DNA of 64,000 nucleotides, from NCBI GenBank assembly GCA_029240245.1, contig JARBTJ010000007.1:1-64000 (forward strand). The letters are read 5' to 3'. Position numbers and translations under genes: made by a program. The notes below the pieces were generated by a model. It made no database searches, was not told the DNA's origin, and saw only the letters and a program-made list of their open reading frames with translations. The DNA comes from Herbinix sp. Its GTDB lineage: Bacteria > Bacillota > Clostridia > Lachnospirales > Lachnospiraceae. This document shows positions 23,600-55,133 of this stretch, in pieces (the first letter of the stretch is position 1; every line of letters begins with the position of its first letter).

Positions 23600-23672
23600 G
23601 CTGCTGTAGCTCAGTTGGTAGAGCACCTCATTGGTAATGAGGAGGTCAGCGGTTCAAGTCCGCCCAGCAGCT
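23600..23672 (+). tRNA. tRNA-Thr (anticodon GGT)
   Basis: A full cloverleaf: acceptor GCTGCTG/CAGCAGC, D stem GCTC/GAGC, anticodon arm CCTCA-TTGGTAA-TGAGG with anticodon GGT, and T arm with GGTTCAAGTCC. No CCA is encoded. It reads ACC and ACU. Confidence 0.95.
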
Positions 23673-23714: not shown

Positions 23715-23789
23715 CGAGGTGTGGCTCAGCTTGGCTAGAGCGCTACGTTAGGGACGTAGAGGCCGCAGGTTCAAATCCTGTCACCTCGA
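23715..23789 (+). tRNA. tRNA-Pro (anticodon AGG)
   Basis: Cloverleaf: acceptor CGAGGTG/CACCTCG, D stem GCTC/GAGC, anticodon stem CTACG/CGTAG with loop TTAGGGA, giving anticodon AGG, and T arm GCAGG-TTCAAAT-CCTGT. The C1-G72 pair is characteristic of bacterial tRNA-Pro. An A at position 34 is unusual in bacteria. No CCA is encoded. Confidence 0.9.
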
Positions 23790-24561: not shown

Positions 24562-24993
24562 ATGAGTATAAGCTATGGTAACAGTTTTACCGTCGTAGAA
24601 TATAACAGTCTGCGCAGAGCAGTGGGCTGGAACGAAATTAATGAAAGACAGGCAGTTATAGGCCTTTCTAACAGCAAATATAAAGCTGCTGCATATGATG
24701 GGGAGAGGACGGTTGGGATGGCCCGACTGATTACGGACGGGGGATATGTAGCCTATATTGCCGATGTTGTCGTTCATCCGGATTATCAGAAATTGGGTAT
24801 AGGGCGAGCCCTATTACAAATGATTTTGACCTATATAGAAGATAATCTTGCAGAGGATGAATCGGTCTGTGTCATATTAATGGCTGCCAAGGATAAAGAA
24901 GTATTTTATAAATCATTTGGATTTAAAGAACGACCAACCGAAAATTTAGGAGCCGGAATGTCCCGATGGATTTCCGGAAAAGCACAGGAATAG
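24562..24993 (+). CDS. GNAT-family N-acetyltransferase
   Basis: 143 residues from ATG 24562, 8 bases after GGAG. The acetyl-CoA-binding motif is VVHPDYQKLGIGRALLQMIL (Q-x-x-G-I-G-x-A), with the preceding strand YVAYIADV and the later SFGFKERP, as in GNAT enzymes. The substrate is unknown; the small size and N-terminus resemble YhbS/ElaA-like members acting on small molecules or protein ends. It is 20 bases upstream of the DUF1848 gene, probably an operon. Confidence 0.85.
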   Translation: MSISYGNSFTVVEYNSLRRAVGWNEINERQAVIGLSNSKYKAAAYDGERTVGMARLITDGGYVAYIADVVVHPDYQKLGIGRALLQMILTYIEDNLAEDESVCVILMAAKDKEVFYKSFGFKERPTENLGAGMSRWISGKAQE

Positions 24994-25013
24994 ATGGAAG
25001 AGGGAAGGGTATC

Positions 25014-25940
25014 ATGATTATATCTGCATCTCGAAGAAGTGACATACCAGCCTATTATTCTGAATGGTTTTTAAACCGTCTTAAGGCAGGGTATGTTCTT
25101 ACGAGAAATCCTATGAATCATGCGCAAATCAGCAAAATTGAACTGTCACCCCAGGTGATCGACGGTATCGTATTCTGGTCGAAGGACCCTTTGAATCTCA
25201 TGGATCAGCTGCCGCTTATCGATTTGATGGGATACCGATATTATTTTCAGTTTACTCTGACTCCTTATGACAGGGAACTGGAGCCGTACGTAAGGAATAA
25301 ACAGGATTTGATAAAGACCTTTGGTAAGCTGTCGGAAATGCTTGGTAAGGACAGAGTGTTGTGGCGTTATGATCCGATTATTATGAATCATAAGATTACA
25401 CCGGATTATCATAAGAAAATGTTTGAGCAGTTCTGCAGGCAACTAAGAACATTTACGAATATCTGCACAATCAGCTTTGTTGATAAGTATACTAAGCTTA
25501 GCAAAGCAAGAGTCGGTAACTTAATCAGAGAGCTTACGTTACCGGAGATGTATCAGATGGCTGCTGCTTTTTCTGAAATAGCCGGGTGTTATGGAATTGA
25601 GCTTAGAGCTTGTTGTGAGCAGGTAGATCTATCCGAGTATGGTATCATACCGGCCAGTTGTATCGATCAACAAACCATTGAGAAGGTCTGCGGATATAAA
25701 ATTAATGTCAAACGTGATACGAATCAGCGTATCGGCTGCGGCTGCATTCAAAGTATTGATATCGGTGCTTATAATACCTGTAAGCATGGATGTATTTACT
25801 GTTACGCGAATTATAGTGATTCCTCCATTCATAATAACTGTAGGAAACATGATCCTTACTCAGATATTTTAATTGGTAGTATTGAAGCAGGTGAAATAAT
25901 AATCCCAAGAAAAATGGTATTATTAAAGAAGGACCAGTGA
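25014..25940 (+). CDS. DUF1848 family protein with cysteine cluster
   Basis: 308 residues from ATG 25014, after AGGGAAGGG. It begins with MIISASRRSDIPAYYSEWFL and has GIVFWSKDPLNLM, both hallmarks of DUF1848. The C-terminal part carries CGCIQSIDIGAYNTCKHGC and IYCYANY. The CxxxCxxC-like arrangement (CKHGCIYCYAN) resembles the cluster of radical-SAM proteins, so an iron-sulfur role is plausible. The function is not established. A minisatellite follows directly. Confidence 0.85.
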   Translation: MIISASRRSDIPAYYSEWFLNRLKAGYVLTRNPMNHAQISKIELSPQVIDGIVFWSKDPLNLMDQLPLIDLMGYRYYFQFTLTPYDRELEPYVRNKQDLIKTFGKLSEMLGKDRVLWRYDPIIMNHKITPDYHKKMFEQFCRQLRTFTNICTISFVDKYTKLSKARVGNLIRELTLPEMYQMAAAFSEIAGCYGIELRACCEQVDLSEYGIIPASCIDQQTIEKVCGYKINVKRDTNQRIGCGCIQSIDIGAYNTCKHGCIYCYANYSDSSIHNNCRKHDPYSDILIGSIEAGEIIIPRKMVLLKKDQ

Positions 25941-25989: not shown

Positions 25990-26285
25990 AATTAATCAGA
26001 AATTTACAAGTCAGAAATAAATCAGTCGAGAATAAATCAGTCTGGCATAAATCAGTCAAAAATTAATCAGTCTGGAATAAATCAGTCAGAAATAAATCAG
26101 TCAGAAATAAATCAGTCTGGAATAAATCAGTCAGAAATAAATCAGTCTGGAATAAATCAGTCAGAAATAAATCAGTCTGGAGTAAATCAGTCAGAAATAA
26201 ATCAGTCTGGAATAAATCAGTCTGGAATAAATCAGTCAGGAATTAATCAGTCAGAAATTTACCAGTTAGAATTAATCAGTTAGAG
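25990..26285 (+). repeat. 15-bp minisatellite, about 19 units
   Basis: Units alternate between AAATAAATCAGTCAG and AATAAATCAGTCTGG. The period is a multiple of three, so one frame stays open and would read INQSE/INQSG repeatedly, but no start codon or ribosome site lies upstream in that frame. It is almost pure repeat, with decayed units at both ends. Confidence 0.9.
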
Positions 26286-26341: not shown

Positions 26342-26370
26342 TTGACAAGAAAAAAAACATATATTATAAT
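26342..26370 (+). promoter_or_regulatory. Consensus sigma-A promoter upstream of the metNIQ leader
   Basis: TTGACA (26342-26347), exactly 17 bases, TATAAT (26365-26370). Transcription should begin near 26377, about 48 bases before the micro-ORF. Confidence 0.85.
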
Positions 26371-26424
26371 TGCGTCAATACATATAGAAATAATAGGAAT
26401 TGATAAAGAATGGGAGGTAAATCG

Positions 26425-26538
26425 ATGAGAACACTGAATGGTATCATGTGTAATATGTGCGGCATGTGTTGTATGCCAAAAAGACATATTTGCGATGATA
26501 GTGAATGTGGTGTTTTCATGATGCTTAAGAAGTCATAG
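26425..26538 (+). CDS. Met/Cys-rich micro-ORF, candidate leader peptide of metNIQ
   Basis: 37 codons after a strong GGGAGGTAAATCG site. The peptide starts MRTLNGIMCNMCGMCCMPKR and goes on to CDDSECGVFMMLKKS; it holds eight Met and six Cys. It lies directly behind a consensus promoter and before an intrinsic terminator, upstream of the methionine transporter. It may be a leader peptide whose translation senses Met or Cys supply, or a small metal- or sulfur-handling protein with CxxCxxCC-like cysteines. The strong ribosome site makes translation likely; the function is inferred from position. Confidence 0.65.
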   Translation: MRTLNGIMCNMCGMCCMPKRHICDDSECGVFMMLKKS

Positions 26539-26566
26539 TAACTTCTTTCCTCATATTATGAAAGAC

Positions 26567-26600
26567 AAACAGGAGGCTGTCGTAGCTATCCTGTTTTTTT
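26567..26600 (+). terminator. Intrinsic terminator between the micro-ORF and metN
   Basis: AAACAGGA and TCCTGTTT, extended inward by GGCT/AGCT with one mismatch, are followed by seven T in total. Readthrough would be needed for metN expression from the upstream promoter, so it may act as an attenuator. No S-box aptamer is visible. Confidence 0.75.
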
Positions 26601-26695
26601 ATTTCATAGAATTTCTTGACAGTATTTCAATAGGATATGAAAAAGCCGATAGGCAAAAAATAATATTGATTAATAATTTTATAGGAGGTGGCAAT

Positions 26696-27703
26696 TTGAC
26701 AGACAATAGACCGATGATAGAGCTGGTGGGAATGGGGAAAGAATTTGTTAGTAAATCGAGTACGGTAAGAGCACTCGATGATATCAATCTTACCATTCAT
26801 GAAGGAGAAATTTTTGGCATAATCGGACTAAGCGGCGCGGGTAAAAGTACATTGGTACGATGTATTAACTTTTTAGAAAAACCAACCTCCGGGGCTGTAT
26901 TGTTTGATGGAATTGATTTGGGAAGTATGAAGGAAAAGGACCTGCTTAAGGCCAGACAGTCCATGGGCATGATTTTTCAACAGTTTAATCTTCTGATGCA
27001 AAGAACAGCCCTACAAAATATTTGCTTTCCGATGGAAATCGCCGGATTTTCTAAGAAGGAGGCAAAGCAAAGAGCCAAGGAGCTTTTAGAGGTTGTTGGG
27101 CTTTCGGATAAGGCAAAAGCGTATCCGTCACAGCTTTCAGGAGGTCAGAAACAGCGAATTGCCATCGCTAGAGCATTGGCGACTAATCCTAAGGTGCTCC
27201 TTTGTGATGAAGCAACCAGTGCCCTCGACCCAACCACAACACGTTCCATATTGAGCTTATTGAAGGAGATCAATCAAAAGCTTGGCATCACCGTTATTGT
27301 TATTACGCATGAAATGAGTGTGATTGAAGAAATCTGCAACCGGGTTGCTATCATTGATCAAAGCCGAATTGCGGAGATCGGTGAAGTGGAAGAGGTTTTT
27401 GCCAGACCAAAATCAAAGATAGCGAAACAATTGGTCTTTTCGGGTGAAACCCATATTGATACCTTTGTAGGTGCTCACAAATGCAGAATTATATTTGACG
27501 GAAGGACCTCCTTTGAACCTGTTATCGCAAATATGATCTTAGAATGCAAGGCTCCGGTAAATATTCTCTTTGCGGATACCAAGGATATCGATGGTAAGGC
27601 CTTTGGACAAATGATCATACAGCTTCCCGATGAGGAGTCCAGCAGAAAGAAAATCTATAACTATTTAAATACAAATAAAATTACTTATGAGGAGGTGATG
27701 TAG
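26696..27703 (+). CDS. metN: Methionine ABC transporter ATPase
   Basis: 335 residues from TTG 26696, which follows AGGAGGTGGCAA; the longer frame upstream runs through the terminator. The ATPase has Walker A GLSGAGKST, Q loop MIFQQFNLL, signature LSGGQKQRIAIARAL and Walker B VLLCDEATSALDP. The C-terminal 75 residues (CRIIFDGRTSFEPVIANMIL to the end) are the NIL ligand-binding domain that lets methionine inhibit transport. It drives uptake of methionine with MetI and MetQ, which follow directly. Confidence 0.96.
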   Translation: MTDNRPMIELVGMGKEFVSKSSTVRALDDINLTIHEGEIFGIIGLSGAGKSTLVRCINFLEKPTSGAVLFDGIDLGSMKEKDLLKARQSMGMIFQQFNLLMQRTALQNICFPMEIAGFSKKEAKQRAKELLEVVGLSDKAKAYPSQLSGGQKQRIAIARALATNPKVLLCDEATSALDPTTTRSILSLLKEINQKLGITVIVITHEMSVIEEICNRVAIIDQSRIAEIGEVEEVFARPKSKIAKQLVFSGETHIDTFVGAHKCRIIFDGRTSFEPVIANMILECKAPVNILFADTKDIDGKAFGQMIIQLPDEESSRKKIYNYLNTNKITYEEVM

Positions 27704-27704
27704 T

Positions 27705-28367
27705 ATGTGGAGTGAAGCAACCGTCAAAATGATTAGTGTCGGAATTTTAGAATCATTTTATATGATATTTCTGTCATCATTCATCGCCTATATAATCGGA
27801 TTACCGTTAGGAGTCCTTCTGGTGGTGACGGATAAGGACGGAATAGCACCAAGAGTTTCACTAAATAAAGCATTAGGTGTTATCGTAAATCTAATTCGGT
27901 CAGTGCCATTCATTATTCTTTTAATTGCCGTGATGCCTTTTACTAGAGCAATCGTAGGAACATCCATCGGACCCAATGGAGTGGTCGTGCCGCTGATTAT
28001 AGCCTCAGCACCTTATATTGCTAGGCTGGTCGAATCCTCATTAAATGAAGTTGACCAGGGAGTAATCGAGGCTGCACAATCCATGGGGGCCTCCCCCATG
28101 CAGATTATATTTAAGGTATTGATCCCCGAAGCAAAACCCTCCCTAATCATCGGTGGAGCGATTGCAGTAACAACCATTTTAAGCTATTCAGCAATGGCCG
28201 GAATTGTAGGTGGCGGAGGCTTGGGTGATATCGCAATCCGTTACGGCTATCACCGATATGAAACGGAAATCATGTTTGTTACCGTAATTATCTTGGTCAT
28301 AATGGTTCAGGTGATTCAGGAGCTTGGGACCTTATGGTCGAAACGGTCGGACAAACGCATTCATTAA
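27705..28367 (+). CDS. metI: Methionine ABC transporter permease
   Basis: A 220-residue inner-membrane protein with five hydrophobic helices and the permease EAA loop (VIEAAQSMGASPMQIIFKVLIPEAKP), which docks on MetN. NLIRSVPFIILLIA and SYSAMAGIVGGGGLGDIAIR are typical MetI segments. It starts 2 bases after metN, with GAGGAGGTGATG inside the end of metN as ribosome site, so translation is coupled. Confidence 0.96.
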   Translation: MWSEATVKMISVGILESFYMIFLSSFIAYIIGLPLGVLLVVTDKDGIAPRVSLNKALGVIVNLIRSVPFIILLIAVMPFTRAIVGTSIGPNGVVVPLIIASAPYIARLVESSLNEVDQGVIEAAQSMGASPMQIIFKVLIPEAKPSLIIGGAIAVTTILSYSAMAGIVGGGGLGDIAIRYGYHRYETEIMFVTVIILVIMVQVIQELGTLWSKRSDKRIH

Positions 28368-28502: not shown

Positions 28503-29312
28503 ATGAAGAAGATCACAGGAGCAATATTAATTTTAACGCTAATCACAGCAATCCTTAGCGGATGCTCAGCAAAATCAGATAAGAAAATTATCATCGGAGC
28601 AAGTACAACCCCACATGCAAAAATACTGGAACAGGTGAAACCTATTTTAGAAAAAGACGGCTTTGAACTCGAAATAAAGGAGTATGTTGATTATGTTCAA
28701 CCTAATCTAGCACTTGACAGTGGGGATTTGGATGCAAACTTCTTTCAACATAAACCTTACTTAGACTCGTTTAACAGTGAAAATGGCACTAAGCTTGTAT
28801 CCGTGGCAAAAATTCATTATGAACCCTTCGGATTATTCCCCGGTAAAACAGCTTCCCTTGAGGCATTAGCAGACGGAGCACTAATTGCGGTACCGAATGA
28901 TTCCACAAATGAAGCGAGAGCACTTCTTTTAATAGAAGAACAGGGCCTGATTAGGTTAAAAGATGGCGCAGGAATTAATGCAACCAAAAATGATATTGCA
29001 CAAAACCCTAAGAATATTGAAATAATTGAACTGGAAGCTGCCCAATTAGCGCGTTCCTTGCAGGATGTGGACGCTGCCGTTATTAATGGAAATGTTGCAA
29101 TAGCAGGTGGACTCAATGTAATCGCCGATGCGATTGCTGTGGAAGACAAGGATTCCGTTGCAGCCGACACCTATGCTAATATTATTGCAGTAAAAGAGGG
29201 AAATGAGAATAAGGAGAGCATTAAAGCGCTGATAAAAGCATTACAAAGTGCTGAAATTGAGAAGTATATTAATGATACCTTTGCCGGTGCTGTTGTACCG
29301 AAATTCGAATAA
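28503..29312 (+). CDS. metQ: Methionine-binding lipoprotein
   Basis: 269 residues from ATG 28503, 8 bases after GGAGG. The signal peptide ends in the lipobox LSGC, so the protein is anchored outside the membrane. KIIIGASTTPHAKILEQVKP, then VDYVQPNLALDSGDLDANFF and QHKPYLD are standard MetQ/NlpA motifs for methionine binding. The C-terminus ends in FAGAVVPKFE. It captures methionine for the MetNI pump. The spacer from metI is larger than within metNI and is repeat-rich, but the same strand and order indicate one operon. Confidence 0.96.
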   Translation: MKKITGAILILTLITAILSGCSAKSDKKIIIGASTTPHAKILEQVKPILEKDGFELEIKEYVDYVQPNLALDSGDLDANFFQHKPYLDSFNSENGTKLVSVAKIHYEPFGLFPGKTASLEALADGALIAVPNDSTNEARALLLIEEQGLIRLKDGAGINATKNDIAQNPKNIEIIELEAAQLARSLQDVDAAVINGNVAIAGGLNVIADAIAVEDKDSVAADTYANIIAVKEGNENKESIKALIKALQSAEIEKYINDTFAGAVVPKFE

Positions 29313-54939: not shown

Positions 54940-55133
54940 TACAAATCAAGTATTCCTGGGATGTTCGATACTCCTGTCATTTTGAACCTACATGATATAA
55001 TACGGGATTCCTACATTCGTAAGTAGATGTCAGGCCGCCGTTTGCAGCGGAAGGCAGAAGCTTATGTGCGGTTACCCACCTAGCTTGGCTAGGAGTCAAA
55101 ATACAGGAACCGGCATTTTGGGTATAATACGAA
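54940..55133 (+). ncRNA. ssrS: 6S RNA
   Basis: The 5' part TCCTGGGATGTTCGAT and 3' part CAGGAACCGGCATTTTGGG match the conserved closing helix and flanks of 6S RNA (E. coli CTGAGATGTTCGC and CGGCGGCATCTCGGAG). The ends can pair through TATTCC.. and ..TTTTGGGTATA. The central part carries several hairpins (CCGCCGTTTGCAGCGG; CCTAGCTTGGCTAGG). 6S RNA binds the sigma-A RNA polymerase as an open-promoter mimic in stationary phase. A promoter precedes it and a terminator follows. Confidence 0.82.

Follow-up and report, generated by a model that had tools for sequence, protein, structure and literature searches.

A candidate methionine leader-peptide attenuator upstream of metNIQ in Herbinix and related Clostridia

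Results

The metNIQ locus of Herbinix sp.

The window analysed here is a stretch of 64,000 nt from Herbinix sp. (contig JARBTJ010000007.1), and the locus described lies on its + strand at 26342–27703, continuing into metI and metQ beyond. A promoter, a short open reading frame (ORF) with its own Shine-Dalgarno (SD) sequence and an intrinsic terminator precede the three genes of a MetNIQ transporter (Table 1). A preliminary description of this DNA had listed a perfect sigma-A promoter, a strongly initiated 37-codon ORF with eight Met and six Cys, an intrinsic terminator behind it and a metN gene with a good ribosome site of its own. The promoter, the terminator (a hairpin followed by a T-run) and the GGAGG ahead of the metN start were all confirmed, as were the length of the ORF, its GGGAGG and its six Cys, but the number of Met is seven. 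A simple terminator scan of the region reported none, probably owing to a bulge in the stem. MetN scored 355 bits against TIGR02314, under the curated cut-off of that model (499.7).

No Rfam family reached threshold in the locus stretch, and there was no match to RF00230 (T-box), RF00162 or any other SAM family. A known riboswitch or T-box at this metN is thereby ruled out, in keeping with the earlier statement that neither an S-box, a T-box nor another known sulfur riboswitch was visible. At E 1, neither Pfam nor NCBIfam yielded a family for the leader peptide, which likewise rules out a known small protein family.

Several other features lie nearby. A 15-base unit, AGTCAGAAATAAATC, is repeated approximately 18.5 times in 26009–26284, directly 5' of the promoter; by eye, the upstream sequences read for the congeneric leaders showed no such array. 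The upstream neighbour of the element encodes a DUF1848 protein whose C-terminal end is rich in Cys (24966–25940), and two tRNA matches (23600–23672 and 23715–23789) lie about 2.6 kb 5' of the promoter. A tRNA-Pro (agg) is found 5' of the leader in 11 of 11 congeneric loci (L069–L075 and L077–L080), accompanied by a tRNA-Thr (ggt) in 10 of them. A second TTGACA, for which no promoter-like partner was reported, is located at 26616–26621, between the terminator and metN. The window also carries a 6S RNA at 54950–55128.

Table 1. Features of the metNIQ locus and its leader, in window coordinates.
Feature	Position	Strand	Basis or remark
Sigma-A-type promoter, TTGACA-17-TATAAT	26342–26370	+	12/12 consensus matches
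SD sequence of leader ORF, GGGAGG	26412–26417	+	7 nt ahead of ATG
Leader ORF, MRTLNGIMCNMCGMCCMPKRHICDDSECGVFMMLKKS*, 37 codons	26425–26538	+	7 Met and 6 Cys; Met-codon core 26425–26475
Segment 1, P1 5' strand, AUGAGAACACU	26425–26435	+	Holds leader start codon; pairs with 26509–26519; in minimum free energy (MFE) fold
Segment 2, GAUAGU..UGU..GUUUUCAU	26497–26519	+	P1 3' strand (26509–26519) and antiterminator 5' strand
Small hairpin, AAGAAGU/ACUUCUU	26527–26547	+	Fold; around leader stop codon; similar in several congeners by eye
Segment 3, AUGAAAGAC..ACA..GCUGUC	26558–26581	+	Antiterminator 3' strand; overlaps terminator 5' arm
Intrinsic terminator, stem AAACAGGAGGC.. / ..GCUAUCCUGUUU and T-run	26567–26600	+	Fold, −13.5 kcal/mol
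metN ribosome site, TATAGGAGGT	26680–26689	+	Read from sequence; GGAGG
metN, ATP-binding subunit with NIL domain	26696–27703	+	Start TTG; TIGR02314 (E 3.7e-106), ABC_tran, NIL
metI, permease	27705–28367	+	NF008049, 223 bits (cut-off 212)
metQ-type NlpA lipoprotein	28503–29312	+	Lipoprotein_9, E 2e-87; MetQ models match below cut-offs

Conservation of the leader within the genus

The genus, which takes in Herbinix and Mobilitalea (Lachnospiraceae), was represented by 34 genomes, our own included. A MetN search returned 30 matches in 29 of them, the other five having no match at E 1e-80. Twenty-eight matches, the window's own among them, were close metN orthologs, the others with at least 76% identity. 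For L076 nothing upstream is available, and in L060 the start of the contig cuts the leader, leaving 26 complete leaders. A search of the genus with the leader peptide found eight relatives in other genomes below E 0.01, and among the weaker matches two (L042 and L043) were real leaders and others were not; reading the sequence upstream of metN raised the leader-bearing orthologs to 27, window included. The element thus precedes every close ortholog with upstream sequence (27/27; 26 complete, one cut), so the attenuator order that the preliminary description had pointed out is real and kept, and not a chance arrangement. All 26 complete leaders have a terminator between the ORF and metN, as that description had proposed checking. 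By eye, promoters like TTGACA...TATACT precede many of the congeneric leaders, and SD-like sequences lie ahead of their start codons.

Conservation of Met and Cys codons in relatives had been proposed as a further check, and it holds for Met: four internal columns are Met in 26/26 leaders. Cys is common but replaceable, the three Cys columns being Cys in 25, 20 and 24 of the 26 leaders, with Tyr, Phe, Leu, Arg, Gly or Met in its place in some congeners. The remaining residues are mostly variable, and length changes occur by whole codons. Behind the Met core an RNA motif of the type GAUARRUGAAUGUGRUGUUUUCAU is kept, with variants, and its frame relative to the leader start is 1, 0 and 2 (mod 3) in 15, 8 and 3 leaders, respectively. 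Measured from the end of the GTTTTC motif, the leader stop ranges between 36 nt on the 5' side and 38 nt on the 3' side. With Met codons invariant, and with the frame drifting while the RNA motif is kept, the leader is conserved for its codons in the first half and for its RNA in the second.

In the leader of L063, which shares a contig with L033, a UGA stop stands right behind the Met core, and the downstream frame and RNA run on as in its relatives. A paralogous MetN (L082, 50% identical) has a different Met-rich leader, MATTNVKMTKDCIMCCDFMPMVEMMVYKLRN, followed by a terminator-like hairpin; upstream of another paralog (L083, 55% identical) no leader or hairpin was visible by eye.

Predicted mutually exclusive structures in the leader RNA

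P1, the antiterminator and the terminator are predicted to be mutually exclusive structures that the leader RNA can form. In the window, the MFE fold of 26425–26581 contains P1 and lacks the antiterminator, and 26497–26581 alone folds as the antiterminator (−22.1 kcal/mol). Across the 26 leaders, 95.8% of P1 cells were paired, compared with 33–65% when the strands were slid; covariation of the P1 columns was not above that of shuffles. The terminator, by contrast, is supported by its covariation score of 0.104 (0.070 in shuffles, 0/500 as high).

The antiterminator duplex was present in 26/26 leaders, at −12.9 to −22.7 kcal/mol. Cognate strands had a mean of −16.95 kcal/mol, compared with −14.2 in 5,000 permutations, none of which was as low, and with −8.2 when segment 2 was shuffled. 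Within the three clades the permutation fractions were 0.008, 0.075 and 0.19; much of the cognate advantage is therefore between clades, and specificity within clades is partly above chance. The search for compensatory changes in the antiterminator stem, which the preliminary description had proposed, gave a mixed picture. The automatic alignment gave no covariation above shuffles (75.2% of cells paired, and 75.5% in shuffles), partly because of length changes and bulges, but in a hand-placed outer helix four cells changed on both sides, compared with 1.07 in shuffles (fraction 0.0025). All four come from one clade and may represent one event. Five leaders have GUUAUC for GUUUUC. The facing strand reads GAUAAC in L057, and in the remaining four AUGAU and AAC with one additional base between them.

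Folding with a modelled ribosome

The mean antiterminator probability over the 26 leaders was 0.04 without a ribosome, 0.49 with a ribosome at the Met codons and 0.08 with the ribosome at the last modelled position. On a looser measure, in which the terminator arm could pair with any upstream sequence, the value rose by 0.28, from 0.27 ribosome-free to 0.55 Met-stalled, compared with a rise of 0.02 (0.44 to 0.46) when the segment between core and terminator was shuffled. The stalled value itself was moderately above that of the shuffled segments (0.55 v 0.46), so the difference lies mainly in how well the strand is hidden when no ribosome is present. The stalled value was stable at 0.54–0.55 for footprints of 10, 14 or 18 nt. 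In 4/26 leaders the majority of the 15 shuffles reached the real Met-stalled value, and the window's own leader, with 6/15 shuffles as high, was not clearly above its shuffles.

The ribosome-free model predicts termination in nearly all 26 leaders. The complete terminator was still favoured at equilibrium in most of them even with a stalled ribosome; a kinetic switch would therefore be required, with timing deciding the outcome. In two congeners (L063 and L069) the antiterminator was not blocked at the last position (value of at least 0.5).

Met-rich leaders outside the genus

A MetN match was present in 133 of 299 family genomes; of the 134 matches in all, 132 lay outside the genus, and upstream sequences were read for the best-scoring 108 of those 132. 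We counted as Met leaders SD-preceded ATG ORFs of up to 50 codons with at least 7 Met. Such ORFs, with 7–12 Met, precede metN in 25 of the 108, compared with one (7 Met) in 5,400 dinucleotide shuffles, and a terminator-like hairpin follows the core in 25/25, weakly in L103. Together the 25 leaders have 893 codons, of which 208 are non-start Met and 85 are Cys. Runs such as MMMCCC occur, and Cys falls to 1 in some leaders (also in the congener L065); leaders of other genera share little beyond Met and some Cys.

Below E 0.02, a search of the 299 genomes with the window peptide found only its own locus, and the weaker matches inspected were not leaders. A profile of 16 non-genus leaders gave 17 matches at E ≤ 0.02, namely its own 16 rows and one new leader (G149), and missed the window's leader and those of G000 and G254. 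All 17 lie on the same strand, 115–320 nt before the metN match (the G149 distance being estimated). Homologs far from metNIQ, named earlier as the finding that would speak against an attenuator, were not seen among these 17 matches, 16 of which are the rows of a profile that does not itself reach the window leader.

Folding of 31 other leaders gave a terminator in 30 (none in L129, a weak one in L103). For these 30, using real sequences only, the value with a ribosome at the Met codons was higher than the ribosome-free value in 24, equal in four and lower in two, and it was at least 0.5 at the last position (not blocked) in 11. At class level, Met-rich leaders were present in 3 of 28 loci examined: L212, which belongs to the same family, L223 and L224. 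Picked by eye, the leader segment CTCGAATGAAC of L224, from another family, is the exact complement of the terminator segment GTTCATTCGAG, and antiterminator-like duplexes were picked in Hungatella hathewayi (L283; 16 pairs, −15.4 kcal/mol) and Agathobaculum (L271 and L266; approximately −20 kcal/mol).

T-boxes and SAM riboswitches in relatives

Among 80 of the 108 family loci, all without a Met leader, Rfam found a T-box (RF00230) before metN in two, L092 and L111, and nothing else. In the alignment both show AUG after GAAC or GAAG, a position that we take to be that of the specifier codon. T-box-like motifs found by pattern at L104, L106 and L117 were not confirmed by Rfam. At class level, pattern matching alone gave T-box-like motifs in 7/28 loci (L222, L226–L230 and L235); L235, the one pattern-positive class locus put through Rfam, gave no match. 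For 20 class loci no regulatory RNA was listed at metN, a TPP match in L217 lying elsewhere. SAM-I riboswitches (RF00162) are present in 32/34 congeners, with one in our own genome on another contig.

Discussion

We read the element as a transcription attenuator of the leader-peptide (ribosome-mediated) type, which would sense charged methionyl-tRNA and govern methionine import by MetNIQ, and put the probability of this reading at about 0.82. Its parts are an SD-led, Met-enriched ORF, an intrinsic terminator, an antiterminator that excludes the terminator in silico, and a protector pairing, P1, that hides the antiterminator strand when no ribosome is present. This anatomy is conserved, and the exclusive structures depend in silico on the position of the modelled ribosome; we infer that the ORF is translated, that ribosomes stall at its Met codons and that the operon responds to methionine. 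With ample methionine, a ribosome would pass the Met codons to the stop, no antiterminator would form, and the terminator would halt RNA polymerase before metN. When methionine is scarce, the ribosome would wait on the Met codons and cover segment 1, so P1 could not form and segment 2 would be free for segment 3; with these two paired the terminator would not be made and metNIQ would be transcribed. Were there no translation at all, P1 would form and the terminator would win. The preliminary description had suggested that translation of Met or Cys codons controls a methionine transporter, and the alternative structures, together with Met in 26/26 leaders, support this, with Met as the probable common signal. 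Further support comes from the Met-rich ORFs before metN in 25 of the 108 family loci, from the two loci at which a T-box with AUG at the presumed specifier replaces the leader, and from an independent proposal of a Met leader before metNIQ in Streptomyces lividans.

Alternatively, the leader might sense cysteine, or Cys and Met jointly, through Cys-tRNA as well as Met-tRNA, so that runs like MCNMCGMCC would stall a ribosome when either is short. Cys makes up 6 of the 37 codons in the window, the Cys columns are widely kept in the genus, and the family leaders carry their 85 Cys partly in runs like MMMCCC. The available part of PMC1262725 predicts Cys-codon leaders in Actinobacteria, and the metL leader of Streptomyces lividans ends in CMCRRMCAF, Met alongside Cys, according to the available part of PMC8079986. 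Against this, Met is invariant where Cys gives way to other residues, non-start Met (208) far outnumber Cys in the family, in which some leaders have just one Cys, and two relatives' T-boxes show AUG at the presumed specifier; we consider a Cys signal possible but doubtful. Much less probable, in our judgement, is that the ribosome is arrested not by codons but by a specific nascent peptide, the Cys and Met side chains of which might bind a metal or a metabolite. Arrest peptides exist as a class, and several leaders show a C-x2/3-C-x2-C spacing by eye, but spacing and neighbouring residues vary, whole codons are gained and lost, and the leaders of other genera have little in common but Met and some Cys.

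A structured, riboswitch-like leader with an incidental ORF would fit the good folding of P1 and the inner hairpins, and the downstream RNA, which is better conserved than the peptide there; yet Rfam is without a match, the internal Met codons stay in frame although whole codons come and go, other genera repeatedly have Met-rich ORFs that lack, as judged by eye, this RNA motif, and the ribosome-free model predicts termination almost throughout, so that we rate it a little below even the arrest peptide. Least probable of all is a gene for a micro-protein rich in Cys and Met that stands alone and has its own terminator, much as the preliminary description had suggested as an alternative; metN would then be transcribed from another promoter after 26600. 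Although the ORF has a good promoter, ribosome site and terminator, and a TTGACA does follow, no promoter-like site was reported for 26616, the element adjoins metN in every ortholog with upstream sequence, and the antiterminator pairing would serve no purpose. Such a protein is also unlikely in view of its C-terminal half, in which no frame is maintained after the Met core.

Attenuation through leader peptides is classic for amino acids other than methionine. In the trp, his, leu, ilv, thr and phe attenuators, a leader rich in codons for the end product, mutually exclusive pairings and an intrinsic terminator control an operon for the same amino acid. The Herbinix leader, read as a methionine attenuator, differs from these in its amino acid, in serving a transporter operon, in a segment 1 that includes the leader start codon and in its Clostridia host. 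S-box, T-box and Met-box systems are generally held responsible for methionine control in Gram-positive bacteria. The T-boxes at L092 and L111 resemble the Herbinix element in operon, in transcription attenuation and in the presumed signal, uncharged tRNA-Met, but a T-box reads the tRNA directly, whereas the leader would use a translating ribosome. The SAM-I riboswitch is also a methionine-related RNA control, but it does not lie at metN and has no match in the window.

The nearest counterpart is metL of Streptomyces lividans TK24, which the accessible part of PMC8079986 proposes as a leader of 29 residues before metNIQ, MSTTSDRTPATEATTTPGARCMCRRMCAF, and calls an attenuator. Like the window leader, metL as described there is a short Met-containing ORF before metNIQ, with Met and Cys together; its three Met after the start are less dense. 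The same part of that source calls the metL transcript leaderless and termination unclear, a typical Rho-independent terminator being missing. Unlike metL as so described, the window leader comes with an SD sequence of its own, a clear terminator, P1 and an antiterminator; it also has comparative support and a Clostridia host. Within the literature searched, and for the portions of those sources that were accessible, a leader peptide counting Met codons has been proposed before only for this one streptomycete, without a clear terminator. The accessible portions of PMC6892785 and PMC12123629 contain no Met leader, and a search of full-text literature, outside which most subscription papers lie, found no methionine leader in Clostridia or Lachnospiraceae.

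Leaders of related kinds are on record, each known to us from excerpts of the source. PMC1262725 gives actinobacterial examples of classical leader attenuators and Cys-codon leader ORFs before sulfur genes of Actinobacteria, for which conserved terminator hairpins are missing, and notes no conserved RNA structure upstream of actinobacterial methionine operons. These Cys leaders, as excerpted, resemble the window leader as short ORFs with sulfur-amino-acid codons; the window leader differs in using Met and an intrinsic terminator. In bacilli, PMC2965389 describes a histidine leader peptide of Bacillus hisS/hisZ and also a T-box before a methionine transporter. The hisS/hisZ case, so far as excerpted, is again a Firmicutes leader peptide at a gene family that has a T-box in other species, but it concerns histidine, aminoacyl-tRNA synthetase genes and bacilli. 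For mycobacteria, PMC13236596 treats attenuation of ilvB1. Methionine starvation would lower initiator tRNA too, complicating a Met leader, and raises the question of how, when Met is short, a ribosome can initiate on the leader and yet stall inside it. Polycysteine leaderless ORFs have reportedly been found in mycobacteria.

If the attenuator reading is true, methionine would gain a firm place among the attenuator amino acids through a complete and conserved example. Met attenuation would then operate in Clostridia of the gut and of biomass degradation, Hungatella, Muricomes and Herbinix being examples, with Agathobaculum as a possible further case. For a broader proposal we see the odds as evenly balanced: that such leader attenuators, for Met or for Met and Cys jointly and complete with terminator and antiterminator, are widespread in Clostridia, perhaps evolved repeatedly, stand in place of the T-box of relatives and gauge sulfur amino acid supply from Met-tRNA and Cys-tRNA together even though Met also initiates, with Streptomyces metL as a distant counterpart. 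The 26 natural leader variants make the attenuator proposal directly testable.

Upstream of metN in Agathobaculum (Butyricicoccaceae; L266, L268, L270–L272, L278–L280, L285 and L290) there is a 22-codon leader of the type MLSIRMNMCMMCGFARFSAMQR. A CG(F/S)ARFSA stretch is kept in these leaders and overlaps a possible antiterminator strand.
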